From positions 1-64,000 of the forward strand of contig NZ_CP053642.1 in assembly GCF_013177295.1 (NCBI RefSeq): a stretch of 64,000 bases of DNA. The letters run 5' to 3'. A model generated the notes under the pieces. It worked only from the letters and a program-made list of their open reading frames with translations, was not told where the DNA came from and searched no databases. Numbering within the stretch: position 1 is the first letter of the stretch; each line of letters starts with the position of its first letter. The translations under genes were made by a program, and so were the position numbers. Positions 1,739 through 61,920 of the stretch are shown here, piece by piece. The stretch comes from Actinomyces marmotae. GTDB lineage: Bacteria > Actinomycetota > Actinomycetes > Actinomycetales > Actinomycetaceae.

Positions 1739-2378
1739 CACCCCCTCGCCGAGACCGGTCGAAAATAGGAGCGAGACCGGTCCTCTATCCACAGGCTCGC
1801 ATGGGGACGAGGGCGCTGAGGCCGTTACCGCGCCCTCTGAACCGGTCTCGATCGTCATTTCGACCGGTCTCGGTTGTAGGGGCGGGGCATGAGATTGCCT
1901 TGATTTAGCGGGGATTGACACGACTGTGGGGCCCGTGTGACTCATGTGATCCATGGGATGGTTGATTGTGATCCACGCCTGTGGACAAGCCTGTGGACAC
2001 CGCCGTCGACGCGGTGGACGCCGTGGCCCGGTCTGTGGCGCCCGCCGGACCAAGTTGTGATTCGGCCCCGGGCGCCACTGCGCCTCTCCACCCCTGCCAT
2101 GCCCCGGGGCACCGAACCACTCCCTTGTAGTTCCACATCCGCATCAAGCCGTGGCCAGCGTGTAATCCCGTTTCCCACAGGATCCACACCTCCTACTACA
2201 CCTACCAACCCACTACACGAGCCCGAATCACAAGCCCGGCCAACGAGGCGCTCCGCCTCCTAGCCCGGGCGCCTGGAGGATCGACCCCCATCGCCGCGCT
2301 CGGCTCACGAGGCGCGTCGAGCGCAAACCGTCTACACTCGCCGATGTTGTCTGTCCGCACTCTCCTCAGGGGGCCATA
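1739..2378. other. dnaA-dnaN intergenic region, candidate oriC
   Basis: This 640-bp gap between dnaA and dnaN has no convincing gene. On the reverse strand it contains an exact actinobacterial DnaA box TTGTCCACA (1980-1988) followed directly by GTGTCCACA (1992-2000). Near matches are CTATCCACA (1785-1793), TTTCCCACA (2171-2179) and GGATCCACA (2180-2188). The least GC-rich patch is near 1890-1925. It also carries the inverted GACCGGTC array (1751-1872). A possible -10 for dnaN, TACACT, lies at 2333-2338. Origin function is inferred from position and boxes; a second box cluster lies at 12759-12911. Confidence 0.7.
1751..1872. repeat. 22-bp-phased GACCGGTC repeat, locus A (inverted pair)
   Basis: Two forward units GAGACCGGTC at 1751 and 1773 (22 bp apart) face two inverted units, accggtctcg at 1841 and gaccggtctc at 1862. 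The spacer holds a DnaA-box-like CTATCCACA and an 8-bp inverted repeat GAGGGCGC/GCGCCCTC (1809-1816 and 1830-1837). The same units recur at six other intergenic sites in the window. Confidence 0.9.
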
Positions 2379-3512
2379 GTGAAGCTCAGGGTCGACCGCG
2401 ATGTCCTCGCGGAGGCTGTCACCTGGACAGCCCGCTCCGTTCCCGCCCGCCCGCCCGTGCCCGTCCTGGCCGGCGTGCGACTGGAGGCCTCCGGATCGAC
2501 GTTGGTCCTGGCCTCCTTCGACTACGAGGTCTCCGCCCACTGCGAGGTGCCGGCCGACATCGAGGCCGAGGGTGTTGTCCTCGTCTCTGGGCGCCTGCTC
2601 GCCGACATCGCCAAGGCCCTCCCCGCCAAGCCGGTCGACCTCGAGCTCGAGGGGACCAAGGTGATGGTCACCTGCGGCTCCTCGCGCTTCTCCCTGTCGG
2701 CCATGGCCGCCGACGACTACCCGGCGCTGCCCCCCATGCCCCAAGTGGCCGGCACGATCGACGCCCACGACCTCGCCCAGGCGGTCGCCCAGGTCTCCAT
2801 CGCCGCCTCCCGCGACGAGACCCTGCCGCTGCTCACCTCCATCCAGGTCGACGTCCAGGGCGACGCCCTGACCCTCATGGCCACCGACCGCTACCGGCTC
2901 GCCGTGCGCGAGATGACCTGGACGCCGTCGGACTCCTCCTTGGAGACCACCGCCCTGCTCAAGGCGCGCACGCTGTCCGACGTGGCCAAGTCGCTCACCT
3001 CTTCCGGAGATGTCACCCTCGCCCTGTCCGACGGCGGCGGGACCTCCTCGGGCCTCATCGGCTTCGAGGCCGGCGGGCGCCGCACGACCTCCCTGCTCAC
3101 CGACGGCGACTACCCCCCGGTGCTGCGCCTCTTCCCCGAGCAGACCCTCATCCACGCCACCGTCGGGCGTGAGGAGCTCATGGCCGCGGTGCGGCGCGTC
3201 AGCCTCGTCGCCGAGCGCTCCACCCCGATCCACATGTCGTTCACCCAAGGGACCCTCGCTCTCGAGGCCGGTCAGAGCGATGACGCCCAGGCCTCTGAGA
3301 GCATCGTGGCGCACCTGGAGGGCGACGACATCGCGACGGCCTTCAACCCGGGATACCTCCTCGACGGCCTCGGCGCTATCTCCGACCCCTATGTGCGCCT
3401 TGACTTCACGCACGCCTCCAAGCCCGCGGTCCTGACCGGCATGAGCGCGATCGGCGGCGAGGAGGACTCCTCCTTCCGCTACCTCATCATGCCGATTCGC
3501 TTCGGCGCCTGA
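2379..3512 (+). CDS. dnaN: DNA polymerase III sliding clamp (beta subunit)
   Basis: DnaN forms the ring-shaped dimer that tethers polymerase III and many repair proteins to DNA. The 377-residue length is that of the family, and the three-domain clamp pattern is visible: MKLRVDRDVL at the N-terminus, the ATDRYRLAVRE segment in the middle domain, and a C-terminus ending RYLIMPIRFGA, close to the usual P-(V/I)-R ending. It starts with GTG at 2379 after a weak purine-rich site. It lies between the candidate oriC and recF in the standard order. Confidence 0.97.
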   Translation: MKLRVDRDVLAEAVTWTARSVPARPPVPVLAGVRLEASGSTLVLASFDYEVSAHCEVPADIEAEGVVLVSGRLLADIAKALPAKPVDLELEGTKVMVTCGSSRFSLSAMAADDYPALPPMPQVAGTIDAHDLAQAVAQVSIAASRDETLPLLTSIQVDVQGDALTLMATDRYRLAVREMTWTPSDSSLETTALLKARTLSDVAKSLTSSGDVTLALSDGGGTSSGLIGFEAGGRRTTSLLTDGDYPPVLRLFPEQTLIHATVGREELMAAVRRVSLVAERSTPIHMSFTQGTLALEAGQSDDAQASESIVAHLEGDDIATAFNPGYLLDGLGAISDPYVRLDFTHASKPAVLTGMSAIGGEEDSSFRYLIMPIRFGA

Positions 3513-3562
3513 CCCGGCGCGAGGCCCCGACAACGTTCTCGCGCCATCCTCGCGCGCCGCTC

Positions 3563-4783
3563 GTGTACGTCTCCGACCTGGCACTCGACGACTTCAGGTC
3601 CTATCGGCACCTCGTGGTGGGCCTGGAGCCGGGCATCAGCGCGTTCATCGGCCCCAATGGGCAGGGCAAAACCAATCTCGTCGAGGCGATCGCCTACCTA
3701 TCCACGCTGAGCAGCCACCGCGTGGGCGCTGATCGGGCCCTGGTGCGGCGCGCCGACGACGGCGAGCAGCCCGGCGGCGCCGTCGTGCGGGCCAAGGTGG
3801 TTCACGGCGAACGCCCCAGCGTCATCGAGATCGAGATCATCGCGGGCAGGGCCAACCGCGCCCGCCTCAATCGCGGCGCCTGCCGTCCGCGGGACCTCAC
3901 CGGGATCCTGCGCACCGTCGTCTTCGCGCCAGAGGACCTCGCCCTCGTGCGCGACGAGCCCGGGGTGAGGCGCCGCTTCCTCGACGACCTCGCCGTCATG
4001 CTGCGCCCCGCTCTCGCCGGGACGCGCCTCGAGCACGACAAGATCCTCGCCCAGCGCGCGAGCCTCCTGCGCTCGGCGCGCGCCCACCGGGGCCGGGGCT
4101 CCTCCTCCATGGAATCGATGATGTCCACCCTGGAGGTCTGGGACGCCCAGCTGGCCGCCGCGGCCTCGCGGCTCATCGTCGCGCGAATCGAAGTCGTCAG
4201 GCGCCTGCGCCCCTGGGTCGAGTCCTGCTACGAGGCCGTCTCGGGCAATCAGTCCGAGGCGCGCCTCGCCTACCGCTCCAGCCTCCTGGCTCATGAGGGC
4301 GCCATTGAGCCCGAGCCCGGAACGGGGTGGGATGCGGTGGCCACCGCCGAGAGCGGACTCGCCGACGCCCAGGCGGTGGCCGCCCGCCTGGAGGTGGCGA
4401 TGGGCGGGCTTCACGAGCGTGAGATCGAGCGCGGCGCCAACCTCGTGGGCGCCCACCGCGATGACCTCTCCCTCTTCCTGGGATCCCTGCCAGCCAAGGG
4501 CTTCGCCTCCCACGGCGAGCAGTGGTCGCTGGCGCTGGCACTGCGCCTGGCCTCCTACGAGATGCTCCGGCACGACGTCGATGCCTACGGGGGCGACGGC
4601 GAGCCGGTCCTCATCCTCGATGATGTGTTCGCCTCACTCGATGACAGGCGCCGTCAGGCGTTGGCTTCCATGGTGGTCGGCGCTCAGCAGGTGCTGGTCA
4701 CGGCCGCCGTCGACGCCGACGTGCCGGATGGCCTGGCCGGAGCGCGCTTCCGGGTGGCCGGATCGGAGGTGACCCGTGACTGA
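3563..4783 (+). CDS. recF: DNA replication and repair protein RecF
   Basis: RecF is an SMC-like ATPase that loads RecA at gapped DNA with RecO and RecR. The 406-residue protein has Walker A GPNGQGKTN (near residue 32), the conserved start LALDDFRSYRHL, and a Walker B/D-loop region LILDDVFASLDDRRR near residue 350. It starts with GTG at 3563; no strong ribosome site is visible. Its stop overlaps the start of the next gene by 8 nt, suggesting coupled translation. Confidence 0.96.
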   Translation: MYVSDLALDDFRSYRHLVVGLEPGISAFIGPNGQGKTNLVEAIAYLSTLSSHRVGADRALVRRADDGEQPGGAVVRAKVVHGERPSVIEIEIIAGRANRARLNRGACRPRDLTGILRTVVFAPEDLALVRDEPGVRRRFLDDLAVMLRPALAGTRLEHDKILAQRASLLRSARAHRGRGSSSMESMMSTLEVWDAQLAAAASRLIVARIEVVRRLRPWVESCYEAVSGNQSEARLAYRSSLLAHEGAIEPEPGTGWDAVATAESGLADAQAVAARLEVAMGGLHEREIERGANLVGAHRDDLSLFLGSLPAKGFASHGEQWSLALALRLASYEMLRHDVDAYGGDGEPVLILDDVFASLDDRRRQALASMVVGAQQVLVTAAVDADVPDGLAGARFRVAGSEVTRD

Positions 4784-5447
4784 GGACCAGCCGGGGGCTG
4801 AGGGCGCAGGCGTCGACCACCCCTGCGATCGTGAGGCGGGCGCCGCCGGGGACGGCGCGAGCCTCGCCTCGCGAGCACTGTCCCGCGTGCGGGCCTCCGC
4901 ATTCGAGCGCGGCCACATGCGAGGGCCCGCGCGCTCCAGCGGGCGTCCGGGGGCGGATGACCCCGCGCCCTGGGACGCTCCCCGGCGCCGCGTCGGCGTC
5001 AACGGCGAGGGGGGCGGCGACCCCGAGAGTGAGGACTGGACGGAGCGCGCGCCCGGGCTGGCCACTGATCGCGGCCGCCCCGGCCCCAGCCGTTTCGACC
5101 CGAGGACCGCGAAGAAGGACCTCGCCCGCATGGTCGACCGCAAGGGATGGGCGGGGATGCTCGCAGTGGCCGGCGTCGCCGCCCGCTGGGAGGAGATCGT
5201 GGGCAGGTCTGTCGCCGAGCACTCGCGCGTGGAGTCCTTTGAGCCCGGGCGGATCACCATCCGGGCGTCCTCGTCCAGTTGGGCGCAGCAGTTGCGGCTC
5301 ATGATGCCCACCATCTTGCGGCGCATCAGCGAGGAGGTCGGGGGCGCCGGGGTCGATGTCCATGTGCTGGGCCCGGCCGGGCCCAGCTGGCGCCATGGAC
5401 GCTTCCCCGTGCGCGGCGGGCGCGGCCCCCGCGACACCTACGGCTGA
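4776..5447 (+). CDS. DUF721 family protein (DciA-like)
   Basis: The 223-residue product has a variable, charged N-terminal half and a C-terminal DUF721 domain (about 110-215) with the KGWAGMLAVAGVAARWEEIVG and ISEEVGG segments. Related DciA proteins help load the replicative helicase; in actinobacteria this gene sits between recF and gyrB, as here. The start is GTG at 4776, inside the end of recF. A helicase-loading role is inferred from the family, since no enzymatic motif is visible. Confidence 0.85.
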   Translation: MTEDQPGAEGAGVDHPCDREAGAAGDGASLASRALSRVRASAFERGHMRGPARSSGRPGADDPAPWDAPRRRVGVNGEGGGDPESEDWTERAPGLATDRGRPGPSRFDPRTAKKDLARMVDRKGWAGMLAVAGVAARWEEIVGRSVAEHSRVESFEPGRITIRASSSSWAQQLRLMMPTILRRISEEVGGAGVDVHVLGPAGPSWRHGRFPVRGGRGPRDTYG

Positions 5448-5510
5448 GGCGCGGCGCCGTGGCCGAGGCGAGCCGCGGCGCCGTGGTCGGAGCGCGGGGA
5501 ACGGAGGTGA

Positions 5511-7895
<2,385 letters not shown>

Positions 7896-7970
7896 CCCAC
7901 CGGCCGCCGTCGGCCCCACGCCACCGCCTGGCAAGGCACTCAAGGCACTGAAGGACACTGAAGGATCCAC

Positions 7971-10538: not shown

Positions 10539-11011
10539 GCCAGCCCGACGCCGCCCAGCCCATGAACGCATCCATCGCGACGAACCCGCCCGCGGTCGGC
10601 GCGGCCAACCCCGGTAAGGGCGGTAAGCAGTCCGCGCTGGGTAGCCCGCGCCGCGTGCGGCTCGTGGTCAACCGAATCGACCCCTGGTCCGTCCTCAAGG
10701 TGTCACTGCTGCTCAACGTGGCGATCGGCATCATGATGGTGGTCGGCGCGGCCGTCGTGTGGTTCATGCTCGACTCGCTGCACGTGTTCTCCCAGATCCA
10801 GGACCTCGTGAGTTCGGTGGTGGAGACCAACTCCAACGCCTTCACCGGCGTCGTGGAGTACATGAAGTTCTCGCGGGCCATCTCGCTGTCCACGATCATC
10901 GCGGTCGTCAATCTCATCCTGAGCACCGCCTTGTGCACGCTCGCGGCCCTGTTGTACAACATCATCGCCTCTCTCGTGGGCGGGATTCATCTCACACTGG
11001 CGGATGACTGA
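10535..11011 (+). CDS. DUF3566 domain-containing membrane protein
   Basis: The 158-residue protein has a hydrophilic N-terminus (about 1-45), then two membrane helices (about 55-82 and 110-150) in the typical DUF3566 arrangement, with the segment [19 protein letters not shown] leading into the first helix. This family is found directly after gyrA across actinobacteria. The function is unknown. The ATG start overlaps the gyrA stop (ATGA), so the two are probably co-translated. Confidence 0.9.
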
Positions 11012-11016
11012 TCGAT

Positions 11017-11044
11017 TTGGTTGTCCCAGACCCGATGGGATAAT
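11017..11044 (+). promoter_or_regulatory. Probable promoter of tRNA-Ile
   Basis: TTGGTT (11017-11022) and GATAAT (11039-11044) are spaced by 16 nt and end 15 nt before the tRNA, a good fit to a housekeeping sigma promoter in this GC-rich setting. Confidence 0.5.
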
Positions 11045-11059
11045 CTCATCCGGTCTCAA

Positions 11060-11133
11060 GGGCCTATAGCTCAGTTGGTTAGAGCGCATCCCTGATAAGG
11101 ATGAGGTCGCTGGTTCGAGTCCAGCTAGGCCCA
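11060..11133 (+). tRNA. tRNA-Ile (anticodon GAU)
   Basis: The acceptor arms GGGCCTA and TAGGCCC pair fully. The D-arm TAGCTCAGTTGGTTAGAGC, an anticodon loop CTGATAA reading GAT, and a T-arm with GGTTCGAGTCC are all present. The discriminator is A and the CCA end is not encoded in full. Confidence 0.97.
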
Positions 11134-11166
11134 CGGCACCGCAGCGCGACGGCGAGGAGGCTCCAC

Positions 11167-11307: not shown

Positions 11308-11319
11308 CCCTCCCGCCGA

Positions 11320-11392: not shown

Positions 11393-11481
11393 CTCCTGCC
11401 TCCCGCGATGGCGCGGCGCGCATCCACAGTGCTCCTCGACGGCGTGAGCGGGTCCCGAGAGCCTCGGGGCGCCCCAGCGCC

Positions 11482-16636: not shown

Positions 16637-16689
16637 CCGGGCATCCGCCCGCGGCCTCGCGCCCGCCATCCCCACCCCTCCCCACACGC

Positions 16690-17021
16690 GAGACCGGTCG
16701 AAAATACGAGCGAGACCGGTCGAAATGAGGATCGAGACCGGTTCGGTGAGGTGAATGCTAGCGCTGTGGGGGCGCGTGCTGAGCGCGGATGAGGGGGCTG
16801 CTCACTTAAGGGGCGCGCCTGAGCACGGAGGGGCGCCCGGCAGACTGAGAGTCGCGCTCCCAATGCGCCTCTCGGTGCGCGAGCCACCCGTTGGTGCGCG
16901 AGGCGCCCGTTGACGGGGACGATGCTCGGCGGGAGCGCGGCCGGCTCACTATCGTGCTGTGCTGATCGACCGGTCTCGATCGTATTTTCGACCGGTCTCG
17001 CTCGTGATATCGACCGGTCTC
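16690..17021. repeat. 22-bp-phased GACCGGTC repeat, locus B (inverted pair)
   Basis: Forward units begin at 16690, 16712 and 16734; inverted units begin at 16968, 16990 and 17012, all 22 bp apart. The 224-bp spacer between the arrays is GC-rich with no gene seen. The element fills the 406-bp gap between the small sortase-partner gene and the convergent end of pknB, and aligned facing arrays could pair into a long hairpin. Confidence 0.92.
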
Positions 17022-17042
17022 GGCGGTGAGAGGAGGGGAGGG

Positions 17043-18917
17043 TCAGTTGGAGGTGGCGCCCGTCGACGGGGACGACGATGGATTATTCGGGTCACCCGGC
17101 TTCGGGGCCTTCGGGGAGGTCGTCGTGGGCGCGGGCTGGAAATCGTACTTCTTGTAGTCGATGGTCACCTGCCCCCCGGCGTCCAGGGAGGCCCCGGCGA
17201 CGGGGCTCGTGCCCGTGACCTCGGTGGTGTCCTTCTTGGCAGGGTCGGAGGTCTTCTCCGTGGTCGGGCTGTTGACGTTGTAGGTCAGGCCCGCGTCCTG
17301 CAGCGCCGTCTGCGCCGCCTCCAGGGTCATGCCCTTGATGTCCGGCACGGTGACCCTCCCCGTGGACAGCACGAGCGCCACCGAGCTCCCGCGCTGCACG
17401 GTCGTGTTCGCCGTAGGCTTGGTGCGGATGACCTTGTCCTTGCCGACTTCCGCGGAGTCCTCCGAGGTGGAGGTCCCCACCTTGAGGCCCGCCTTCTCCA
17501 GGGCGTCGCGCGCCTCCTCCTGGGTCTTGCCGGACACGTCGGGAACCTCGACCATGGCGGTGCCCAGGGAGTACTGGACCGTCACCGTGGAGCCAGGAGC
17601 GGCGCCCGTGCCCACAGCCGGGTCGGTGGAGACCGCCCGGCCCGGGGGGATCGTGTTGGAGGCGACGCCGTCGCCCTTGGCGTAGACCAGGCCGACGGAC
17701 TCGATCGCGGCCTTGGCCTCCTGCTCCGACTTGCCCGTGACATCCGGGACGGCGATGGTCGTCGGCGTCGGTGAGGCGGTGGGCTTGGGATCGGCCCCGC
17801 CGAACTTCCCAGAGCTGACCGCCCACGCACCCAGCGCCACCGCGACGAGGAGCGCCGCGATGAGCAGCCACAGTCCGAGGCGGTTCTTGGACGCGCGCTC
17901 ATCATCCTGCTCAGTGGGCATGATCAGGGGCTGCTGGGTCACCGGGGGCGGTGGTGCGGGCGTCTCGGGGCGGGCGGGGCTGAAGGCGTCGGTCTGCTGC
18001 GGGAGCGTCGTCGTCGGGGCGGAGGCCCAGGTGGAGGTCGCGGGCGCGGACACGGCATTGCCCTGCTGCGCGGCCAGGAGGTCGGTGCGCATGTGGGCGG
18101 CATCCCCATAGCGGTCATCGCGCCGCTTGGCCAGCGCCTTGAGGACGACTCGGTCGATCGCCTCCGGGATATCGGCGGCGATCGACGACGGCGGCTTGGG
18201 CACCTCCCGCACATGCTGGTAGGCGATGGCCACGGCGGAGTCGCCTGTGAACGGCGGATGGCCGGTGAGGAGCTCGTAGAGGAGGCAGCCGGTGGAGTAG
18301 AGGTCCGAGCGGGTGTCCACGACCTCCCCGCGGGCCTGCTCCGGGGACAGGTACTGGGCGGTCCCGACGACGGCGTGCTGCTGGGTGACGGTCGCCGCGG
18401 AGTCCTCGATGGCGCGGGCGATGCCGAAATCCATGACCTTCACCGCGCCGGTGGAGGTGATCATGATGTTCCCGGGCTTGATGTCCCGGTGGACGATGCC
18501 GGCGCGGTGGGAGTACTCCAGGGCGTCGAGCACGCCGGTGACGATCTCGACCGCCTCGGGGATCGGCACGGCCTCGCCGTCGCCCAGGAGCTCGCGGACC
18601 GTATGACCCTCCACGTACTCCATGACGATGTACGGGACGGTGCGGCTCGTCCCGTCCGGCTGGACGAGGGTCTCCTCGCCGGAGTCGTAAACGGCGACGA
18701 TCGAGGGATGGTTGAGCGCGGCGGCGGACTGGGCCTCGCGCTGGAAGCGGGTCTGGAACGTGGAGTCGCTGGCCAGGTCCGAGCGCAGGAGCTTGATGGC
18801 GATGACGCGGTTGAGGCGCCGATCGTACCCGAGGCGCACCTCCGCCATGCCGCCACGGCCGATGAGGTCACGGATCTCGTAGCGTTCGGCCAGGATCACG
18901 GGGAACGTGTCGGTCAC
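17043..18917 (-). CDS. pknB: PASTA-domain serine/threonine protein kinase (PknB type)
   Basis: This membrane kinase senses muropeptides or lipid II and phosphorylates cell-division and wall-synthesis proteins. The 624-residue product has a Hanks kinase domain (about 12-275: GRGGMAEV loop, HRDIKPGN catalytic loop near 141, DFGIA), a Pro-rich juxtamembrane segment, one membrane helix (about 345-365) and three extracellular PASTA repeats starting at VPDVTGK, VPDVSGK and VPDIKGM, with a Pro/Ser-rich tail. Three PASTA repeats is one fewer than mycobacterial PknB. The GTG start overlaps the pknA stop (GTGA). Confidence 0.96.
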   Translation of the reverse strand: MTDTFPVILAERYEIRDLIGRGGMAEVRLGYDRRLNRVIAIKLLRSDLASDSTFQTRFQREAQSAAALNHPSIVAVYDSGEETLVQPDGTSRTVPYIVMEYVEGHTVRELLGDGEAVPIPEAVEIVTGVLDALEYSHRAGIVHRDIKPGNIMITSTGAVKVMDFGIARAIEDSAATVTQQHAVVGTAQYLSPEQARGEVVDTRSDLYSTGCLLYELLTGHPPFTGDSAVAIAYQHVREVPKPPSSIAADIPEAIDRVVLKALAKRRDDRYGDAAHMRTDLLAAQQGNAVSAPATSTWASAPTTTLPQQTDAFSPARPETPAPPPPVTQQPLIMPTEQDDERASKNRLGLWLLIAALLVAVALGAWAVSSGKFGGADPKPTASPTPTTIAVPDVTGKSEQEAKAAIESVGLVYAKGDGVASNTIPPGRAVSTDPAVGTGAAPGSTVTVQYSLGTAMVEVPDVSGKTQEEARDALEKAGLKVGTSTSEDSAEVGKDKVIRTKPTANTTVQRGSSVALVLSTGRVTVPDIKGMTLEAAQTALQDAGLTYNVNSPTTEKTSDPAKKDTTEVTGTSPVAGASLDAGGQVTIDYKKYDFQPAPTTTSPKAPKPGDPNNPSSSPSTGATSN

Positions 18918-27152: not shown

Positions 27153-27214
27153 GCCTCTCAGCGTAGGTGTGGGAAGGGATGGGTTTCGAGACCGTGGAGG
27201 CTCGAAATGGTCAC

Positions 27215-27397
27215 GAGACCGGTCGATCGGGGCGAGACCGGTCGATATTAGGAGCGAGACCGGTCGATATCAGGAGCGAGACCGGTCCGCCATCCACAGG
27301 CCCTCCTAGCCCTTGTGGGGGCGGGAAGGGCCTGTGGAGGACCAACCGGTCTCGATCGTCATTTCGACCGGTCTCGATGCTGTTTTCGACCGGTCTC
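27215..27397. repeat. 22-bp-phased GACCGGTC repeat, locus C (inverted pair with central hairpin)
   Basis: Forward units begin at 27215 (off phase), 27234, 27256 and 27278; inverted units begin at 27344, 27366 and 27388. Between them TCCACAGGCCCT (from 27293) and AGGGCCTGTGGA (to 27338) form a 12-bp inverted repeat. Degenerate half-units flank it near 27188 and inside the ybdD 3' end near 27429. It fills the 265-bp gap between ybdD and the VanZ gene. Confidence 0.93.
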
Positions 27398-27417
27398 GGC
27401 GCGGAGGGGGGTGGGGA

Positions 27418-30145: not shown

Positions 30146-30910
30146 TCAGGGATTGGCCACGTTGACTACGCCAGTGTCAGTAAAACGCGGTGCAGGGGTG
30201 TCAAGTGTGGACAGACGGCGCGGGAGCGGAGCGGGTCCGCCCTGAACCGGTCTCGTTGCTGACAACGACCGGTCTCGGTGGTGATAACTACCGGTCTCGG
30301 CGAGGGGGCTGGGGGCGTGGGGGCCGAGGGAGTCCGGGGTGATGACGGGCAGGACCGACCAGGGGAAGTTGATCCACTTGTCGGTCTCCTTCCAGCAGTA
30401 GTCCGGGGTGAAGACGGAGCGGGGCTTGCGGTAGATGACGGCGCTGCGCGCGTCGACCGGCACCGTCTCATCGCCCAACTCCAGGCCCTGACTGCGCAGG
30501 AGGTCCATGACCAACTTGAGGGTCTTGCCCGAGTCCGCGACGTCGTCGACCACGAGGACTTTCTTGCCCGGCAGCTCGGAGGCGTCCATGAGCGGGGGCA
30601 GGATAACCGGCTCCTCCAGCGTCTCGCCGATGCCGGTGTAGAACTCGACGTTCATCGCGCCCATCGCCTTGATCCCGATGGCGTAGCCGATCGCGCCGGC
30701 CGGGATGAGGCCGCCGCGGGCGATGGCGATGATGAGGTCCGGCATCCAGCCCGAGGCGACGATCTGCGCGCTCAACTCGCGCTCGGCGACGCCGAAGAGC
30801 TCCCAGGTGAGGTTCTCACGGTCCGGGTGGTCGGCGGTGGAGGCGCCGTCGTCGAAGGCCGCGCCGGGGGCGGTGGGAGAGGTCTGGCTGGGGCTGTTCG
30901 CGTTGCTCAC
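30146..30910 (-). CDS. Phosphoribosyltransferase domain protein with repeat-encoded tail
   Basis: The 254-residue frame has a type I phosphoribosyltransferase fold with the PRPP-binding loop VLVVDDVADSGKTL and an upstream IAIARGGLIPAGAIGYAIG, as in purine-salvage or xanthine/hypoxanthine-type enzymes. The exact base is not clear. GTG 30910 is chosen because CAGGAT lies 6 nt upstream (leaderless pattern); the frame stays open to 31075. The homologous part seems to end near FPWSVLPVITPDS. The last 50 or so residues come from the GACCGGTC repeat and flanking DNA, so the original stop may have been displaced. Confidence 0.8.
   Translation of the reverse strand: MSNANSPSQTSPTAPGAAFDDGASTADHPDRENLTWELFGVAERELSAQIVASGWMPDLIIAIARGGLIPAGAIGYAIGIKAMGAMNVEFYTGIGETLEEPVILPPLMDASELPGKKVLVVDDVADSGKTLKLVMDLLRSQGLELGDETVPVDARSAVIYRKPRSVFTPDYCWKETDKWINFPWSVLPVITPDSLGPHAPSPLAETGSYHHRDRSLSATRPVQGGPAPLPRRLSTLDTPAPRFTDTGVVNVANP
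30245..30298 (-). repeat. 22-bp-phased GACCGGTC repeat, locus D (inside a coding 3' end)
   Basis: Three units, aaccggtctc, gaccggtctc and taccggtctc, begin at 30245, 30267 and 30289. They lie within the open C-terminal end of the phosphoribosyltransferase frame and encode the residues ETGSYHHRDRSLSATRP. No opposing array is present here. Confidence 0.9.
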
Positions 30911-43091: not shown

Positions 43092-43097
43092 GCCGCT

Positions 43098-43200
43098 GAC
43101 AGGCGCGTTCCGCCCCGACAGGTGCCGTCCGCCCCGACAGGTGCGGTGACAACGCGCCTGTCGGCGCTGAGCGCACTTGTCGGGGCGGAACGCACCGGTC
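43098..43200. repeat. 19-bp-phased GACAGGTGC inverted array
   Basis: Three forward units GACAG(G)(T/C)GC begin at 43098, 43117 and 43136 (19 bp apart) and three inverted units GC(A/G)C(C/T)(T/G)GTC begin at 43154, 43173 and 43192 (19 bp apart). A 21-bp arm (43105-43125) pairs with 43173-43193 with one G-T pair. It lies between convergent genes (DUF5926 and the importer ATPase) and could be a bidirectional terminator or a protein-binding array. Confidence 0.9.
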
Positions 43201-43291
43201 GGCGCGCGGCGCGCTGAGCATGAGCTCGGCATGAGCCCGGCGTGAGTTCGTCACGCCTCGCTAGCGCGCCGCGGATCGCCCTCCTCGGTTC

Positions 43292-49094: not shown

Positions 49095-49531
49095 GCCGAC
49101 AGGCGCGCCCGCGCCGAGAGGTGGCGAGGTGGCGAGGCGCGCCCGCGTGGCGGGGTGGCGGGGTGGCGGTGTGCGGTGGTGGGGTGCGTCCGCGTGGTGG
49201 GGTGGCGCGGTGTGCCTGCGGTGAGAGGTGCTGATTGCGCCGAGTGGTGCGTTCTGCCTGCTCCTCTCGGTGTTGGTGGCACCTGTCGGGGGGAAGGGCA
49301 CCAGTCGGTGCGGGGTGTGCGGTGCGGGGTGTGCGCGCGGTGTGGGGTGTGCCCGCGTGGCGGGGTGGTGGGGTGTGCGGTGGTGGGGTGTGCCCGCGCT
49401 GAGAGGTGCTGATTGCACCGAGTGGTGCGTTCTGCCTGCTCCTCTCGGTGTTGGTGGCACCTGTCGGGGGGAAGGGCGCCAGTCGGTGTGGGGTGCGCGG
49501 TGGTGGGGTGTGGGGTGAGCAGTGCGGGGTG
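49095..49531. repeat. Repeat-rich intergenic region upstream of the kinase gene
   Basis: The 525-bp gap holds two 88-bp copies (49223-49310 and 49401-49488, 178 bp apart, two differences), each with GAGAGGTGC, GCACCTGTCGG-type and CCAGTCGGTG elements related to the 43.1-kb array. The rest is low-complexity, strongly G-biased GTGGGGTG sequence. No gene is supported; frames here are His/Pro- or Arg/Gly-rich artefacts. Confidence 0.85.
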
Positions 49532-50489: not shown

Positions 50490-50641
50490 GATGCTTCCTC
50501 GCAAGGGATCGGATCGGATGCGTGACATCCTAGCCGAGAACCGTTATCATTAACAGGTCGGCTCCAGTGGTGCGGAGCTCCAGGTGGCCGCCGTCGGAGG
50601 GCTCTCAACCCCCGGCGGCGGCCACCACTCCCTGCTGGCGC

Positions 50642-50673
50642 GAGACCGGTCGAAAACAGCGACGAGACCGGTT
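50642..50673 (+). repeat. 22-bp-phased GACCGGTC repeat, locus E
   Basis: Two forward units, GAGACCGGTC (50642) and GAGACCGGTT (50664), lie between the divergent aldolase and downstream hypothetical genes, with no opposing array. Confidence 0.85.
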
Positions 50674-53838: not shown

Positions 53839-53890
53839 ACTTCTGGGAACCGTGCAGAACCGGACTGAACCGCACTGAACTGCGCTGAAC
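53831..53890 (+). repeat. Six 10-bp units ending in GAAC
   Basis: Starting at the stop codon of the preceding gene, six consecutive decamers end in GAAC (TGCACTGAAC, TTCTGGGAAC, CGTGCAGAAC, CGGACTGAAC, CGCACTGAAC, TGCGCTGAAC). The spacing is one helical turn, and the array ends 5 bp before the -35-like element of the next gene, suggesting a phased binding site for a regulator. Confidence 0.85.
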
Positions 53891-53895
53891 TGCCC

Positions 53896-53924
53896 TTCCG
53901 CCGATGCGGGGAGCCTGCTAGCCT
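53896..53924 (+). promoter_or_regulatory. Probable promoter of the surface-protein gene
   Basis: TTCCGC (53896-53901) and TAGCCT (53919-53924) are 17 nt apart. The -10 is good and the -35 weak, fitting a promoter that needs an activator bound at the adjacent 10-bp array. Confidence 0.45.
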
Positions 53925-53961
53925 CGTTATCAGCCCGTGACACTCCACTCTGGGAGATCCT

Positions 53962-55536: not shown

Positions 55537-55567
55537 GCGGCGTGCCCCCGTTGCCACGCCCGCGAAC

Positions 55568-55602
55568 GGCGGGGCCCCGAGGCATTGACCCGGGGCCCCG
55601 CC
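55568..55602. terminator. Strong terminator hairpin 1
   Basis: GGCGGGGCCCCG (55568-55579) and CGGGGCCCCGCC (55591-55602) form a perfect 12-bp stem with an 11-nt loop, 32 nt after the surface-protein stop. Confidence 0.75.
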
Positions 55603-55630
55603 GTCCCGTCTTGCGATCGCCTCACCCCAT

Positions 55631-55667
55631 GCTGAGGCCCCGGGCGGTGACTGCCCGGGGCCTCAGC
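55631..55667. terminator. Strong terminator hairpin 2
   Basis: GCTGAGGCCCCGGGC (55631-55645) and GCCCGGGGCCTCAGC (55653-55667) form a perfect 15-bp stem with a 7-nt loop. It acts in series with hairpin 1. The rest of the 421-bp gap to 55957 shows no gene. Confidence 0.75.
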
Positions 55668-55957
55668 GGCTAGGGGCGCGACCGGGCTCAGTCCTGACGC
55701 CGCTGCTGGGCGGGCGCTCATGCGGCCCATTGAGAGGGGTGGCGAGGGGAAAGACGGGGCCCGTCGCCGTTGACGGGTCCCGGCGCCCAGGCTTCCACGC
55801 TCCGGCGACGGTTTCCACCGTCCTTAGAAGCCACCTGGGCAAATGCGTTCAATCCGCAAGCTTTCAGCAACACGGCCGCCCCCGTTGCCGAGCTGAGACC
55901 CGAGGAGGTGGTCATCCGATCCCACACAGGAGCCCCGATCATGACTAGGCTTAGCCT

Positions 55958-56800
55958 GTGAGTCCGTCCTCAGCGCCACGGGCCGATCAACGAGTCGCCG
56001 TGGTCATCCCCGCCAAGGACGAGGCCGACCGCATTGCGGCCACGGTTCGCGCCTGCCGCGCCATCCCGCGAGTCGACCTCGTCGTCGTCGTCGATGATGG
56101 ATCCAGCGACTCCACTCAGAGCGCGGCGCGGTGCGCCGGCGCCGTCACCGTCCGCCACTCGGTGAGCCGGGGCAAGGCCTCCGCCATGGAGACCGGCGCG
56201 GGGGTCGTCGCCATGCGCGACTACGAGGACGGCCCCACCCGCCTCCTGCTCTTCCTCGACGGCGACCTCGGGGACTCCGCCGCCGCCTGCGCCGATCTGG
56301 TCCCGCCGGTGCTTGACGGCGCCGCGGACATGTCCATCGCCGTCCTGCCCAAGCAGGCGGGTGCCGGCGGGCGGGGCCGCGTCGTGCGTGCCGCTCGTCG
56401 CGCCATCGCCGCCACCACCGGCTGGGCGCCGATCGCGCCCCTGTCCGGCCAGCGCTGCCTGACCCGGGCCGCCTACGACGCCGCCCAGCCCTTCGCCGAG
56501 GGCTGGGGCGTGGAGGTCGGCATGACCATCGACGTGCTCGTCGCGGGCCTGACGGTCATCGAGGTCCCCTGCGACATCCAGCACCGCGCCTCCGGCAACG
56601 ACATGGCTGGCAAGCTGCACCGCGCCGCCCAGTACCGCGCCGTCATGCACGCCATCGCCCGGCGCAAGCTCCGCGGCCAGCGCGTGCCGATTCATGCGCG
56701 GGACGAGGGCGCGATCCGCGCGCAGGCGCCCTTCATGGCGTTCCGGGCTGTCAAGCAGGCCGTTGCCCCGGGCGCGCCGCCAGCAGCGCCCGAAGGATGA
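55958..56800 (+). CDS. Family 2 glycosyltransferase
   Basis: The 280-residue enzyme has a GT-A fold: VAVVIPAKDEADRI, VVVDDGSSDST, SRGKASAMETG and the metal-binding LLFLDGDLGD. No membrane helix is obvious. Such enzymes make glycolipids or wall polysaccharide precursors, but the acceptor is not evident. TAGGCT lies 6 nt before the GTG start with no ribosome site (leaderless pattern), within an inverted repeat AGGCT-T-AGCCT. The last 50 bp overlap the convergent membrane-protein gene. Confidence 0.85.
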   Translation: MSPSSAPRADQRVAVVIPAKDEADRIAATVRACRAIPRVDLVVVVDDGSSDSTQSAARCAGAVTVRHSVSRGKASAMETGAGVVAMRDYEDGPTRLLLFLDGDLGDSAAACADLVPPVLDGAADMSIAVLPKQAGAGGRGRVVRAARRAIAATTGWAPIAPLSGQRCLTRAAYDAAQPFAEGWGVEVGMTIDVLVAGLTVIEVPCDIQHRASGNDMAGKLHRAAQYRAVMHAIARRKLRGQRVPIHARDEGAIRAQAPFMAFRAVKQAVAPGAPPAAPEG

Positions 56801-58973
56801 GGGGCGCCGCCGTCGCGGCTGAGATCACGGCCATGGACGGCCCCGAGTCGTTGAGCAGCGTTTCGACGACGACGAGCACTCCCAGCCCCACCAGCGCTGA
56901 CCCGACCCACCGAGGAGCGGCGCGACCCGTGGTGAGCCACCGGTAGGCGGACCGCCCCTCGCGCCACGCCCGGTGCTCCCGGGCCCCCCACCAGGCCGCG
57001 CCGACGACGGTGACCAGCCCGGCCATCAGCGCCGTCAGGGCGAGCGCGCTGCTGAGGAAAGGGGCGATGAGCGCCCCGGCCTTGCGCTCCAGCGTGCCCC
57101 AGGCCGAGCCGTCGGCGAGGCCCGCCGCGAAGCGCCCCAGGTGGGTGCGCCGATCTGCCGGGCGCGCGAGGTCGAGGCCCGCCAGGACCGTCCCGACCAC
57201 CAGCATTCCCGCGACGGCGCCCAGGCCGGCGCGCAGTCGGCCACGTCGGCCCAACTCTGGGGCGGCGAGGGCGACGGCCAGCACCACGAGCACGGGCGCG
57301 AGCGTGAGCGCTCCTCCGAGGTCGGCGCCGAGCCAGGGTGCGCCGTCAAGCGCGAGAGCCCCACCGCCCATGAGCGCCACCAAGCCCAGGGCCCAGCCGC
57401 GGCCGGGAGGCGAGAGGGCTCGGAGCGCGGCGATCGCGATGATGAGCGCGGCGGCGGCGATCGCGAACCCCGTGTTCGACATGCCGTAGAAGCGGCCCGC
57501 GACGACGGCGTCCATGCCCAGGGCCCCATTGAAGGCCAGCGGCGCCCCGAGGGCGGCGTCGAGCAGCCAGGCCAGGGACGTGAGCCCCGCGACGAGCGCC
57601 ACCTCCCCGCGAGGGCGCCCCACGGCCCGGGTGGCGAGGGCGACGAGCCCGGCCAGGGCGCCGCCGATGAACAGGATCGCGGCGAGGGCGGCGGCCGCGG
57701 CGGCCCACGAGGGCTCGTCCGCCGACGCCCCGGCGCGCCACCAGGGAATGACTCCGGACAGGAGCGCGGCGAGCGGCAGGCATGAGGCCGCCAGCGAGGC
57801 CCCGCGCAGAGCGATGAGCGCGCGCGGTCGAGGCGCGCCCCGCAGGGCGAGGGCGGCCGTGAGCGCGAGCGCCCCGGAGGCGGCGACGAGGAGCAGGATC
57901 GACGGGATCGTGGTCAGGTGGGAGGCGCGGGCGCGCAGGGCGCCGTCGGCGAGCTCCTCCACGGCGCGGGACCCCGCGGGGTCGGTAGCGCCCGGCTCCG
58001 CGCTCGCGGCCGGGGGAGGGGAATCGGGCAGGGCGAGGGCGCTGCCGGTCATCCGCGCGGAGGCGCCGCCCGGGTGGGGGCTCCCGGTGAGCGCGGCGAG
58101 GATCGTGGGGGCCAGGTCGGTGAGTTGGATGAGTCCCGCCTGGTGGGTGGAGTCGCCGACGAGCAGGCCGCCGTCGCGGCCCCGCGGGGAGGTGGTGCCC
58201 GCGGGCAGGATGCCGATCTGCGGGCCGGGGCTCTCGGCGTCGGCCACGGAGACGATGACGACCCTCGCCCGCGGCATCGCGGCCAGGACCGCCTCGCGGG
58301 CCCGCGCCAGGGCCGTCACCCGCTGCTCGGCGGTGGTGACCCCGGCGGCGGTGTCGACGAGGGTCAGCCCGCTGGGGCCGGAGGCCAGGAGCTCCTTGAG
58401 GCTGTCGCTGGTCGTGGCGGCCCCGCCCTCGGTGGCCAGCGCGAGGGAGGCGGCATCCCCGATGGCGGTGGCGGGCGCGCCGGCCTTGGCCAGGGCGGTG
58501 GCCAGCGCCCCGGGGCGGGCCTCGTAGCCGGAGCCTCTGGAGGCGGCCAGGGCGGATGCCGCGTCGGGGGCGTCCAGGCAGGCCGGGGCGCCCGGGGTGG
58601 ACGCGGCGCCGGGGGGCAGGGCGCGGGCGCGGGACCCGGCGCCGAGGGTCAGCCAGCCGTCGGCCGGGCAGGTGGCCGGGTTCGCCGAGCGCACGACGAC
58701 GTTGACGGGCTCGCCGCTGCTCGCGGCGTCGAGGAGGGAGCCGGCGTCGCCGGCGGCGGAAGAGGAGGAGCCCGCGATCTCGCGAAGGCCCCCCCAGGTC
58801 AGATCGCGGGTGCCCAGCACGATGACGGGCGCGCGCCCCGCCGTGTCCTGGGTGGAGGCCGCGGAGGACGCGCTGATCATCGCGAGGATCATCCCGAGGA
58901 CGGTGAGCAGGATGATGCCGTAGACCACTGCGCGCGCGAAGCGCTGCTGGGGGTTCCGCCGTCGCCTGCTCAC
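56751..58973 (-). CDS. Large membrane protein with extracytoplasmic domain, unknown
   Basis: The 740-residue product has an N-terminal membrane helix (about 15-37), a large extracellular domain (about 40-345) whose IQLTDLAPTILAALTG segment resembles alkaline-phosphatase-superfamily proteins, and about ten membrane helices in the C-terminal half with Gly/Asn-containing loops (GRFYGMSNTGFAIAAAA). It may handle surface glycopolymers together with the overlapping GT2 gene, but this is speculative. GTG 58973 has TAGGCT 6 nt upstream (leaderless pattern). Confidence 0.7.
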   Translation of the reverse strand: MSRRRRNPQQRFARAVVYGIILLTVLGMILAMISASSAASTQDTAGRAPVIVLGTRDLTWGGLREIAGSSSSAAGDAGSLLDAASSGEPVNVVVRSANPATCPADGWLTLGAGSRARALPPGAASTPGAPACLDAPDAASALAASRGSGYEARPGALATALAKAGAPATAIGDAASLALATEGGAATTSDSLKELLASGPSGLTLVDTAAGVTTAEQRVTALARAREAVLAAMPRARVVIVSVADAESPGPQIGILPAGTTSPRGRDGGLLVGDSTHQAGLIQLTDLAPTILAALTGSPHPGGASARMTGSALALPDSPPPAASAEPGATDPAGSRAVEELADGALRARASHLTTIPSILLLVAASGALALTAALALRGAPRPRALIALRGASLAASCLPLAALLSGVIPWWRAGASADEPSWAAAAAALAAILFIGGALAGLVALATRAVGRPRGEVALVAGLTSLAWLLDAALGAPLAFNGALGMDAVVAGRFYGMSNTGFAIAAAALIIAIAALRALSPPGRGWALGLVALMGGGALALDGAPWLGADLGGALTLAPVLVVLAVALAAPELGRRGRLRAGLGAVAGMLVVGTVLAGLDLARPADRRTHLGRFAAGLADGSAWGTLERKAGALIAPFLSSALALTALMAGLVTVVGAAWWGAREHRAWREGRSAYRWLTTGRAAPRWVGSALVGLGVLVVVETLLNDSGPSMAVISAATAAPLILRALLAARPGQRPA

Positions 58974-58996
58974 CCGAGAAGCCTACGGCCCCCCGC

Positions 58997-59072
58997 GAGA
59001 CCGGTCGAAACCAGCATCGAGACCGGTCGTTATCAAGAGCGAGACCGGTCGAAATGAGGAGCGAGACCGGTT
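58997..59072 (+). repeat. 22-bp-phased GACCGGTC repeat, locus F
   Basis: Four forward units begin at 58997, 59019, 59041 and 59063, exactly 22 bp apart; the last is GAGACCGGTT. They lie in the 165-bp gap between two leftward membrane-protein genes. Confidence 0.92.
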
Positions 59073-59138
59073 CGGAGGGGGGACGGCAGCAGTGCGGGGC
59101 CGCGCGCTGATCGCCCGGCCCCGGCGAAAGAAGCGGGG

Positions 59139-61763
59139 TCAGAAGGCGAGGGCGTGGGCCGCCCTGGTGACGGTCACCTCCGGGTCACCGCTGCCCGACA
59201 GATCGACCGTCCCCGAGAAGGTGTATCTCACCGTCTGGTCCTTCGGGTTCTTGTCCCACGTGGAGGGGTTCCTCCGGTAGGTGAAGACGATCGTGCCGCT
59301 CTTGAAGGTGGAGGCGTCGTCCATGGTCACCGTGCTCGCCGGAGTCGTCACCGAGAGTGACGCCAGGTCCGTGCTCCGCAGCTCGATGGGGCAGGAGCTG
59401 TCGGTATTGGTCGGCGGCGTCACGCAGCTCGTGGCCTTCTCGTTGATCTTGGCCAGGACGTACCGCTTGAGCTCCTCGGTCGGCGCGCCCTCGACGGCGA
59501 GAACGGTCCCCGAGGCCGCGCTGTCGCCGGGCAGGACCGTGACCGAGGATTTATCAGTGGTGATATAGGCGGAGGTCGCCGACGCGCTGGCGATGGGGTA
59601 GATGCCGGGGTACATGTACTGGACGGCGGTCCCGCCGGCGCGCTCCGGGGGCTTGGGCCCCTTGGAACTCTTGCTCGGGTTCTCCAGAGCGACCTCGGTG
59701 CCGCCCACGCTGAGGCCCCCCAATGACTTGGAGGACAGCTGGACGGGCATGGCCAGCGAGGTCTTCACCTTCCAGTTGTTGAGCAGGCCGAAGGACTTGT
59801 CCTTGGAGGAAACGGTGAAGATCCGGGTGAACTTCTCGCCATTGACGGACAGCGTGGCCTCGACCCGCTTCTCATCGTCCCCCTTCCCTTTCTCCTTCTC
59901 CTCGACGTCGACCACCGTGATCCGCGACGTCGCCGCGGACATGGCCGAGTCCGTCAGGAGCGCGCGCTGATCGTTCGACACTCCTGGGTCCACCATGGCC
60001 GTTGCCTCGGAGGCCTTCCCGGCGGCCACGAGATCGAGGTACTTCTCGACCTCCTTCTCAGGCGTGCGCTGGGAGTTGAGCATCTCGACGGCGATGAAGA
60101 AGCCCATGAGGAGCGCGAGGCAGGCGACGACGGCGCCCGTGACCAACTTGAGGCGACGGCGTGCCCGGGGGCTCATGGGGGCCGGGATAGCCGGCGCGGG
60201 GACCGTGCCGGCCACGGCGAGGGCCGCGCCAGCGGGGAATGATCCCGTGTCCGGGGCGCCCAGCGGGAAGGCGCCGGTGCCGGGCGTGCCGAGCGGGAAG
60301 GCGCCGGTGCCGGGACTGGCTGCGGGCGTCCCCGGCGGCGGGGGCGCCGCCGCGGCGATGGGACTGGCTTGGGCGACGGGACCAGCGGAGGCGAGCGGGC
60401 CGGTCGAGGCCACCGGCCCTGCCGCGAACTGGCCGGACGTCATCGGGAGCGCTCCGGTGGCCGGCAGGCCCGCGACCCAGCGGTCGACGGCGGCGCCACC
60501 ACCGATGAGGCGCAGCAGCGAGGCCGCATTGGCGTGGAGCAGGCCGGGGACGTACTCGGCGAGCACGGAGATCACCAGCAGGATGAGCGCGAGTGTGAGG
60601 GAGGACCACCACGACGGGACGAGGGAGAGGCCCGCGCTGTGGGAGCCCAAGCGCGCGACGGAGACGCCGATATGAACCCTCAGGGGAATCAGCAGGTGGA
60701 GTGCCACGATGGCCAGGACGAGGCCCACGGCCGGCATCTGCCAGACGCGCTCGAAGGAGGGCGCGGCCAGGCGCTGGCGACGCGTGCCGATGCGCGCCGC
60801 GGCCACCACCAGGAGCACCAGGATCGCCAGGAACAGGAGGGACGACCAGCCGCCCAGCGCATCCCAGGCCAGGCTCGTCGTCGTCCCGGCGTCGACCGGG
60901 ATGTCGGCGAAGACACCGAAGGCGTCGCGCTGGCTCGCGGAGAGTGACGCTCCGCCGAGCGTGCCCAGGCTGAGCGCGTAGATGAGCAGGTTGCCGAGGT
61001 AGACGGGGATGACGGGGATCGCGTGGGCGGCGTCGTTGAGCGCGGCGCCGACGATGGCGCCCAGCACGACGACGGGGCCGAGGATGACGCCGACGCCCCA
61101 GGCGAGTCCGCCCAGTTCGTGGACCACCCGCTGGATAGCCCCGGGGGTGCGCGCCAGCAAGGCGCTACCAGCGCGTGCGGCTGTCAGCGCGCCGAAGACG
61201 AGGACCCAGACGCTGAGGAGGATCCACCCCGGCGAGGCGTGGATCTCGCCCTTGTCGAGGTCGGGGCTTATCCCGTCGCCGGACACGGAGACGATGCCGG
61301 TCAGGAGGCAGGCGACGACGGCGATGGCCAGTGCTTCCAGGGCCGCGCGCAGGGCGACGGCGCCGAACGGCGCCCAGGACTCGTCCTGGCGCGCGCGGCG
61401 GCGCGCGAGGAGGTGGACCGCCGTCGCCACCGCCGCGAGCGTGCCCAGGGGAAGCATGGACGCCCCGATGGACACCGATCCAACCGAGCCCTCGTCGATG
61501 CCGCCGGTCAGGTGCCCACCCAGGCTGTAGCCCATGGCGACGAGGAGCGGTGAGATTCCCGACGGCGCCTTGTCCACGGAGGGCGCGATGGCCACGAGGA
61601 TGAGGATCGCGGAGATGAGCGCCGTGCCGAGCACCGCCGCGAGGGTCAGCAGGAAGGAGATCTGCGCGGGCGCGCGCCCCAGCGGCGATAGCGCCTGGGA
61701 CACGACGCTCGGCGGCGCCTGAAAGGCCGGCTGATCAGCTGAGACCGTGGATTCATCACTCAT
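59139..61763 (-). CDS. Very large polytopic membrane protein with extracellular C-domain, unknown
   Basis: The 874-residue protein has about ten membrane helices in residues 35-420, a cytoplasmic Pro/Ala/Gly-rich linker with GTGAFPLG repeats (about 430-545), another membrane helix (about 550-572), and an extracellular domain (about 575-874) beginning TPEKEVEKYLDLVAAGKASEATAMVD, which resembles NTF2-like or TcaA-type membrane-attached domains. No enzyme motif is seen. ATG 61763 follows AAAGG. It lies on the same strand as the 740-residue protein, separated from it by repeat F. Confidence 0.7.
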   Translation of the reverse strand: MSDESTVSADQPAFQAPPSVVSQALSPLGRAPAQISFLLTLAAVLGTALISAILILVAIAPSVDKAPSGISPLLVAMGYSLGGHLTGGIDEGSVGSVSIGASMLPLGTLAAVATAVHLLARRRARQDESWAPFGAVALRAALEALAIAVVACLLTGIVSVSGDGISPDLDKGEIHASPGWILLSVWVLVFGALTAARAGSALLARTPGAIQRVVHELGGLAWGVGVILGPVVVLGAIVGAALNDAAHAIPVIPVYLGNLLIYALSLGTLGGASLSASQRDAFGVFADIPVDAGTTTSLAWDALGGWSSLLFLAILVLLVVAAARIGTRRQRLAAPSFERVWQMPAVGLVLAIVALHLLIPLRVHIGVSVARLGSHSAGLSLVPSWWSSLTLALILLVISVLAEYVPGLLHANAASLLRLIGGGAAVDRWVAGLPATGALPMTSGQFAAGPVASTGPLASAGPVAQASPIAAAAPPPPGTPAASPGTGAFPLGTPGTGAFPLGAPDTGSFPAGAALAVAGTVPAPAIPAPMSPRARRRLKLVTGAVVACLALLMGFFIAVEMLNSQRTPEKEVEKYLDLVAAGKASEATAMVDPGVSNDQRALLTDSAMSAATSRITVVDVEEKEKGKGDDEKRVEATLSVNGEKFTRIFTVSSKDKSFGLLNNWKVKTSLAMPVQLSSKSLGGLSVGGTEVALENPSKSSKGPKPPERAGGTAVQYMYPGIYPIASASATSAYITTDKSSVTVLPGDSAASGTVLAVEGAPTEELKRYVLAKINEKATSCVTPPTNTDSSCPIELRSTDLASLSVTTPASTVTMDDASTFKSGTIVFTYRRNPSTWDKNPKDQTVRYTFSGTVDLSGSGDPEVTVTRAAHALAF

Positions 61764-61866
61764 GAGGCGCCTTTGAGGTCGAGGGTGAGGTAGATCGCAT
61801 CATCGCATGAGTCAACCCCTGACGTGCGATGAGTCCGCATTATGGGGATGCGCCCGCCTTCTCCGC

Positions 61867-61920
61867 GAGACCGGTCGAAAATAGGAGCGAGACCGGTCGA
61901 AAATAGGAGCGAGACCGGTC
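61867..61920 (+). repeat. 22-bp-phased GACCGGTC repeat, locus G
   Basis: Three forward units begin at 61867, 61889 and 61911 with identical 12-nt spacers (GAAAATAGGAGC), in the divergent promoter region between the 874-residue protein and pheA. The array ends 36 bp before the pheA -10. Confidence 0.92.

Follow-up and report, generated by a model that had tools for sequence, protein, structure and literature searches.

Miniature inverted-repeat transposable elements (MITEs) are non-autonomous, occur in many copies, and have inverted ends. At transposon ends of the Tn7 and Mu type, the sites are oriented so that the two ends are inverted to each other, and the Mu ends likewise contain multiple sites. 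According to the sections of the literature drawn on here, Tn7-like ends carry several transposase sites of about 22 bp per end with variable cargo between them (PMC8649781), head-to-tail dimers are absent, under-represented, or negligible in the GTAG and CGTC families of repetitive extragenic palindromic sequences and bacterial interspersed mosaic elements (REP/BIME) (PMC3733652), and DNA uptake sequences (DUS) form dialects of one core and occur as inverted pairs near gene ends (PMC3630211). Here we describe a family of polar arrays of 22-bp repeat units in Actinomyces marmotae, detected in positions 1–64,000 (the window) of its single-contig genome of 2,419,502 bp (G000). The window starts with dnaA (125–1738), followed by gyrB and gyrA. 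We regard the family as a new variant of REP/MITE-like repeats, and its arrays may be the ends of mobile-type elements. A literature search, with most subscription journals outside its reach, returned no description of such a family among the matches listed, and for DUF6318 (see below) or the sequence GACCGGTC the matches listed were unrelated papers only.

In the window, GACCGGTC occurs 22 times, compared with 3.86 expected, and none of 100 shuffled sequences reached 22. Genome-wide, the strict pattern GAGACCGGTC-N12-GAGACCGGT is found 189 times (80 forward and 109 reverse), whereas the reversed control gave no match. The first-pass annotation of this DNA had reported arrays at seven intergenic sites; all are where it placed them, but the family is larger than it reported. 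Our catalogue for G000, built from the DNA surrounding the majority of the arrays matched, contains 107 arrays with a total of 292 units, two to six per array. It tolerates steps of 18–25 bp (20–24 bp for distant species), and bigger gaps divide arrays. The step is exactly 22 bp in 183 of 185 cases, and within the window a single step deviates, at 19 bp (27215 to 27234). The 22-bp phase described earlier is thus a property of the whole genome, and neither chance-level counts nor another phase, which had been named as grounds for doubting the family, was found. As for location, 104 of the 107 arrays lie outside genes, as called by us from open reading frames (ORFs) and codon usage rather than taken from annotations. 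The first-pass annotation had excepted one locus (D, below) from the non-coding placement of the units, and D lies inside an ORF. The seven sites of the window correspond to ten arrays, because three of them are convergent pairs (> ... <). In the runs of two to four units noted before, two opposed arrays had been merged at these three sites and the polarity missed.

Each array is polar and consists of an outer leader, the phased units, and an inner edge. The unit has a conserved core of 13 bp and a variable spacer of 9 bp. The leader is rich in C and poor in G, with the sequence CCCCYNTSRS next to the core in our own consensus. For 37 leaders that run from a stop codon to an array, the content is 64% C and 12% G, compared with 40% and 37% behind 135 stop codons without an array (Mann-Whitney p 5e-19). 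In 46 arrays that have no stop nearby, the 20 nt on the outer side are equally rich in C, and the leader therefore belongs to the array. The four bases preceding the first core are variable, the commonest among the 107 arrays being TCGC (14), CCGC (8), and TGAG (8). The letters of the spacer are restricted by position; for example, positions 13, 14, and 16 are mostly A or T. Of the 236 arrays from four close species, 45 have the motif TCCACAR on the inner side within 70 nt of the last core, the cassette copies among them not being independent. It was found in 17 of 105 arrays of G000, 7 of 63 of A. gaoshouyii, 15 of 53 of A. denticolens, and 6 of 15 of A. timonensis, where 1.2, 0.8, 0.7, and 0.4 were expected, and on the outer side in none of them. 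In 34 of the 45 cases the motif lies exactly 7 nt after the core, and only 2 of 69 arrays of distant species have it inside. The motif resembles a DnaA box, the consensus of which is TTATCCACA.

Neighbouring arrays mostly point toward each other. Counting all 80 forward and 100 of the 109 reverse places, 25 pairs of neighbours lie between 10 bp and 3 kb apart, of which 19 are convergent, none is divergent, and six point the same way; the convergent count was equaled in none of 20,000 orientation shuffles. A further 15 neighbours, spaced by under 10 bp, are convergent without exception. Nine brackets in distant species (L332, L334, L338, L339, L342, L344, L351, L390, and L314) are convergent as well, and 35 of the 107 G000 arrays are solo. 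Among compact palindromes selected with a strict pattern of their own, which omits decayed copies, the two arms have identical outer units in all 30 (15 in G000, 11 in A. gaoshouyii, and 4 in A. denticolens). With 12–400 bp between them, arms resemble each other no more than random pairs do (0.59 versus 0.69), and those of longer brackets score 0.76. Template switching between the arms would explain their identity within a locus, but not identity across loci.

Comparison with related genomes reveals which parts of the array are retained. A. gaoshouyii (G008) aligns collinearly with the window, mostly at 88–95% identity, and its arrays hold their position while varying by whole 22-bp units (from four to three, or three to two). 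One of its palindromes is a one-way array in G000. In 62 orthologous array ends, core positions 1–13 differ by about 2%, a conservation that is biased by detection at positions 1–10 but not at 11–13. Spacer positions 14–22 differ by 21–58% (mean 37%), the outer nine bases by 23%, and the DNA 28–81 nt further out by about 10%. The spacers therefore change faster than the flanking DNA, but hardly in length: across the four close species 345 of 352 steps are 22 bp, whereas 118 indels per 571 substitutions relative to A. gaoshouyii were counted in other intergenic DNA of the window. Of 94 steps in the more distant dialects, 88 measure 22 bp and the other 6 measure 23 bp. The proposal of the first-pass annotation that a phased DNA-binding protein is under selection here gains support from these figures; its contrast with a simple duplication is only partly correct, as whole units are also gained and lost between species.

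The step and the core CGAGANCGG persist among species groups, whereas the spacers and core position 6 vary. Position 18, for instance, is A in 97% of the G000 units and G in 97% of those of A. denticolens. The palindrome GACCGGTC, earlier described as the conserved core, is not kept in relatives, where GACCGGGC, GATCGGTC, and GAACGGTA occur; because position 6 differs between species groups, the palindrome is not essential. Four loci were compared between species; at each, the place is kept and the spacers of both arms have changed together. One of these could be compared in all four close species, and its core in A. timonensis is GACCGGGC. A locus read by us as topA/tetR holds a compact palindrome in A. 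gaoshouyii; in G000, 1 kb separates the same two arms. Some arrays of another genome, G016 (for example L337, 1488–1606), contain two alternating unit types, such as TCGTACCCCGCGC and TCCACTTCCGGCT, giving a higher-order period of 44 bp.

Some brackets enclose genes. A cassette of about 1.9 kb encoding DUF6318 and PKD-like proteins occurs as three full copies in G000 with related arrays at both ends, and the match between the copies ends within about 10 nt beyond the arrays. A fourth copy is internally deleted (L161). At least one array was found on the DUF6318 cassettes in all 14 loci examined from G000, G006, G042, and G033, and arrays at both ends in 8 of them; these are 14 of 16 matches, with the fourth of G006 and the fifth of G042 left out, and one (L429) is cut by a contig end. 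Of the 49 genomes of the genus, 44 have DUF6318, in one to eight copies each, and the PKD-like gene adjoins it in the G000 cassettes. As a factor acting in trans, DUF6318 was rejected, given its presence in these 44 genomes and the lack of a match in the array-rich genomes G008 and G013 (A. israelii). A protein of 462 codons that we read as RarA ATPase-like lies between arrays in A. denticolens (L141), and only a fragment of it is seen at the corresponding place in G000 (L161).

The strict pattern is present in 7 of the 49 genus genomes. With one core base relaxed (CGAGAYCGG), it is found in 20 of the 49 and in none of 164 genomes of other genera of the family; one match each was found in five viral contigs. 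A DUF6318 cassette of G033 has the same architecture with the core GAGAACGG, and from this dialect we derived the general pattern GAGANCGG-N14-GAGANCGG. It matches in 29 of the 49 genomes and is absent in 20, with no match for the reversed control in the genus. Copy number is patchy, from 0 to 569: 569 in G016, 385 in G033, 332 in G013, 250 in G009, 197 in G000, 146 in G047, and 82 in G025. In other genera, 12 of the 164 genomes have one or two matches (14 in total, compared with 4 for the reversed control). The family is centered on the genus. The loci of relatives designated L038–L155 were chosen because they match, and presence rates derived from them are biased. L042 (2100–2170) and 19 other contigs, mostly rhizobial, contain the strict pattern on both strands 3 bp apart; in L042, the one contig inspected, a TTGACA hexamer follows two GAGACCGGTCTC palindromes spaced by 22 bp, an arrangement like that of a repressor operator.

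As far as the sections drawn on here go, REP/BIME share with our arrays a high copy number, short length, intergenic location near 3' ends, frequent inverted dimers, the ability to supply stop codons, and species-specific families, but the arrays differ in being direct, 22-bp-phased tandem units (PMC3733652). In addition, neither GTAG nor CGTC is among the 25 commonest tetramers preceding the core, many arrays are not palindromes, G000, G006, and G008 contain no Y1/RAYT transposase, and the distant dialects share the step but not a hairpin. The paired arrays resemble Tn7/Mu-type ends in having multiple phased sites of about 22 bp at both inverted ends and variable DNA between them. Unlike those ends, they occur in hundreds of copies, many as empty palindromes or single ends, the outermost bases are hypervariable, and no target-site duplication was seen. 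With MITEs they have in common many copies, inverted ends, and an internal deletion derivative (L161), and they differ from them in their modular ends, variable unit number, and unrelated interiors in six distant brackets.

The explanation we favor, tentatively and at somewhat less than an even chance, is that the arrays form the polar ends of mobile elements, most of them degenerate and non-autonomous, and act as phased sites for one putative protein. Each array would be one end of a short mobile-type element, laid out from outside to inside as a C-rich, G-poor leader, two to six phased units, and an inner edge that, in the species group of G000, often has TCCACAG at a constant distance. A single DNA-binding protein, probably transposase- or recombinase-like and supplied in trans, would occupy one unit after the next along a single face of the helix and pair two convergent ends. 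A complete element would be > interior <, with an interior that may be a cassette (for example the DUF6318 and PKD-like pair), filler, or just the 4-base loop of a 68-bp palindrome, and solo arrays would be leftover ends. Dialects might arise as protein and sites co-evolve. A protein that reads DNA on one helix face is suggested by the conserved core, the variable spacer, the step that stays fixed across dialects, and the lack of a fold common to all arrays. Element ends are suggested by the polarity, the convergent pairing, the cassettes that move with their ends, the internally deleted copy, and the patchy copy number.

Several observations weigh against these being element ends. With regard to the palindromes, the wider G000 catalogue has identical outer spacers in 16 of 17 compact pairs, not all, and one A. 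gaoshouyii palindrome (at the place of L171) is decayed and its arms no longer match fully. Two units per arm, the arrangement of 16 of the 17 compact G000 pairs, is very short for a transposon. Simple transposition does not explain why compact palindromes are identical across one species at positions shared between species, and the GACCGGGC core of A. timonensis is not species-wide, since it occurs at some loci only and others keep GACCGGTC. The plasmid and phage collections contained no match to the 68-bp palindrome, and on this ground a phage or plasmid origin was rejected. With regard to cargo, DUF6318 cassettes lack an array in 13 of 13 stretches from G047, G025, G016, G009, G023, and G024, all of which bear arrays elsewhere. 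The interiors of six distant-species brackets share no similarity with each other. A bracketed gene for a PF00724 oxidoreductase occurs in the same order in G025, G045, G021, and G018. No core was seen in the two gaps around it in G025, the general pattern has no match in G045 and G021, and the sole match of G018 is on another contig. Because the gene order is the same without arrays there, this bracket does not enclose cargo, and a simple composite transposon was ruled out as the structure of every bracket.

The search for a transposition machinery and for traces of movement gave further points of this kind. Y1/REP transposases (PF01797) had no match in G000, G006, and G008, compared with matches in 5 of 14 control genomes, other families not having been searched; a RAYT/REP transposase was thus ruled out as the partner. 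No tnsB-like gene turned up, in contrast to Tn7, although no search was aimed at one, and none of the interior proteins submitted to Pfam is a transposase. We read a remnant in L159 as transposase-like. In about 0.40 Mb of A. gaoshouyii no clean empty site or target-site duplication was seen. All 19 G000 elements that could be placed on both sides in this species keep at least one unit, and 8 more align on one side only.

The strongest rival, which we consider rather unlikely, is a host boundary or terminator array: a protein would polymerize along the phased units and act as a polar road-block after genes, with convergent arrays shielding the DNA between them. Among 70 non-palindromic G000 arrays, a stop codon lies within 60 nt of the outer edge in 38 and of the inner edge in 11, and in distant species the numbers are 24 and 4 of 44. 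This arrangement agrees with a boundary function, as does the native PF00724 gene between two arrays, and the C-rich, G-poor leader resembles Rho-binding RNA. The 3' end of a GntR/UTRA regulator gene carries an array in the group of G000 and in G013, G009, and G023 (and one good unit in G027), which also fits, but G024 and G016 have no array there. More generally, the genes adjacent to arrays mostly differ in distant species: of 28 genes with an array behind them in distant species, 5 have a counterpart among the G000 genes covered, and 1 of these is likewise followed by an array. Furthermore, 27 of the 70 non-palindromic arrays face gene starts, 20 of the 49 genus genomes have no match, and the cassettes carry arrays along with them.

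Sites for a nucleoid-associated or chromosome-organizing protein, the function suggested by the first-pass annotation, are improbable by our estimate. Such a protein could account for the fixed phase, the conserved core, the restricted spacer letters, and more than 100 dispersed arrays that are nearly all (104 of 107) outside called genes. The distribution check proposed with that suggestion revealed a mild bias toward dnaA (88 loci, quartile counts 26, 32, 16, and 14; Kolmogorov-Smirnov p 0.01), which fits such a role. There is no bias between replication strands, with 51 arrays co-directional and 60 opposed when the terminus is taken as opposite dnaA, and this split ruled out a replication-polar signal of the KOPS, Chi, or Ter type. 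The element-like convergent ends and the cassettes have no obvious place in an organizing role, and the patchiness within the genus also counts against it; the suggestion is not supported by these results. A role specific to oriC was ruled out by the lack of an array downstream of dnaA in G016, G013, G009, G024, and G023.

Slightly less probable again are REP/BIME-like RNA hairpins, acting as terminators or stabilizers of mRNA 3' ends, with the phase as a by-product of unit duplication. Folding is strong for the one compact palindrome tested (z −13.7) and for two of four non-palindromic G000 arrays (z −4.9 and −5.0). The arrays lie near gene ends, the two arms change together, and in four arrays the stop of the neighboring gene falls inside the first unit (ETGRK before the stop was seen). 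However, the other two G000 arrays (z −0.4 and −1.0) and all five distant-dialect arrays (z −1.8 to 0.0) are not clearly distinct in folding from shuffled sequences, so that RNA structure as a conserved feature was not borne out, and the 22-bp step is conserved although an RNA function needs no fixed step. In the window, Rfam identified three tRNAs only. Finally, a DNA-uptake-type signal spread by biased transformation is very improbable, as 88 loci in 2.4 Mb are sparse, the units form phased arrays of two to six at far fewer loci than DUS and have no known uptake role, and DUS are short single motifs and are not known to form phased direct repeats. Its dialects at shared positions and inverted pairs near gene ends do parallel the DUS dialects of the Neisseriaceae in the sections drawn on here (PMC3630211).

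Array A (1750–1782, forward strand) has two units, begins 12 nt past the dnaA stop (1738), and is preceded by a C-rich leader. Its inner module TATCCACAGG (1786–1795, forward), which is DnaA-box-like, has TCCACAG 7 nt past the last core GG, and its convergent partner A' (1840–1872, reverse) has two units. Array B (16689–16743, forward) and array B' (16968–17022, reverse), which lies 21 nt past the stop of a PASTA kinase gene (17043–18917, reverse), have three units each and are convergent. Array C (27214–27287, forward) has four units, the first step being the 19-bp one, and is convergent with C' (27344–27398, reverse), which has three. Their inner modules are CATCCACAGG for C (27291–27300, forward) and, for C', CCTCCACAGG on the reverse strand (27331–27340). 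In our reading of the alignment, the center of C/C' appears inverted in A. gaoshouyii.

The window contains four further arrays. Array D (30245–30299, reverse), with three units, is solo and lies within the 3' end of ORF 30146–30910 (reverse), beyond the phosphoribosyltransferase domain (residues 42–186 of 254); A. gaoshouyii has no array at this place, and its gene content differs there. Array E (50641–50673, forward; two units) is solo and kept at the same place in A. gaoshouyii and A. timonensis. Array F (58996–59072, forward) is also solo and has four units, compared with three in A. gaoshouyii. Array G (61866–61920, forward) has three units, and A. gaoshouyii has a compact 68-bp palindrome at the same place.

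Other repeats were observed as well. At 43094–43204 of the window lies a second, look-alike pair of convergent arrays; its step is 19 bp, its unit is GACAGGTGCGGTCCGCCCC, and its 55-nt arms are 82% complementary and 1 nt apart; the A. gaoshouyii copy has diverged. Two GC-rich direct repeats of 162 nt at 49150–49512 start 178 nt apart and are 85% identical. Another dispersed repeat of G000, about 65–110 nt long, is present in L159 (2104–2190), L200, L203, L191, L201, L202, and L222, and the L159 copy sits between two arrays.

A bolder version of the element-end reading is possible but doubtful. It holds that phased polar DNA ends exist at the level of the genus and are recognized by a protein yet to be found, that species rewrite the copies (the spacers and, in some species, a core base) at conserved positions, and that the elements would form a new class, ended by arrays and propagated through drive or homing-like behavior independent of the described transposase families. 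If the arrays are indeed element ends, an undescribed mobile-type element would be represented in Actinomyces chromosomes by ends whose number reaches the hundreds. With dialects at shared positions, two problems would become testable: the joint change of specificity in a DNA-binding protein and its hundreds of sites, and the means by which dispersed short palindromes are homogenized. If instead a host function is the correct explanation, the arrays would constitute a new kind of gene-boundary signal.

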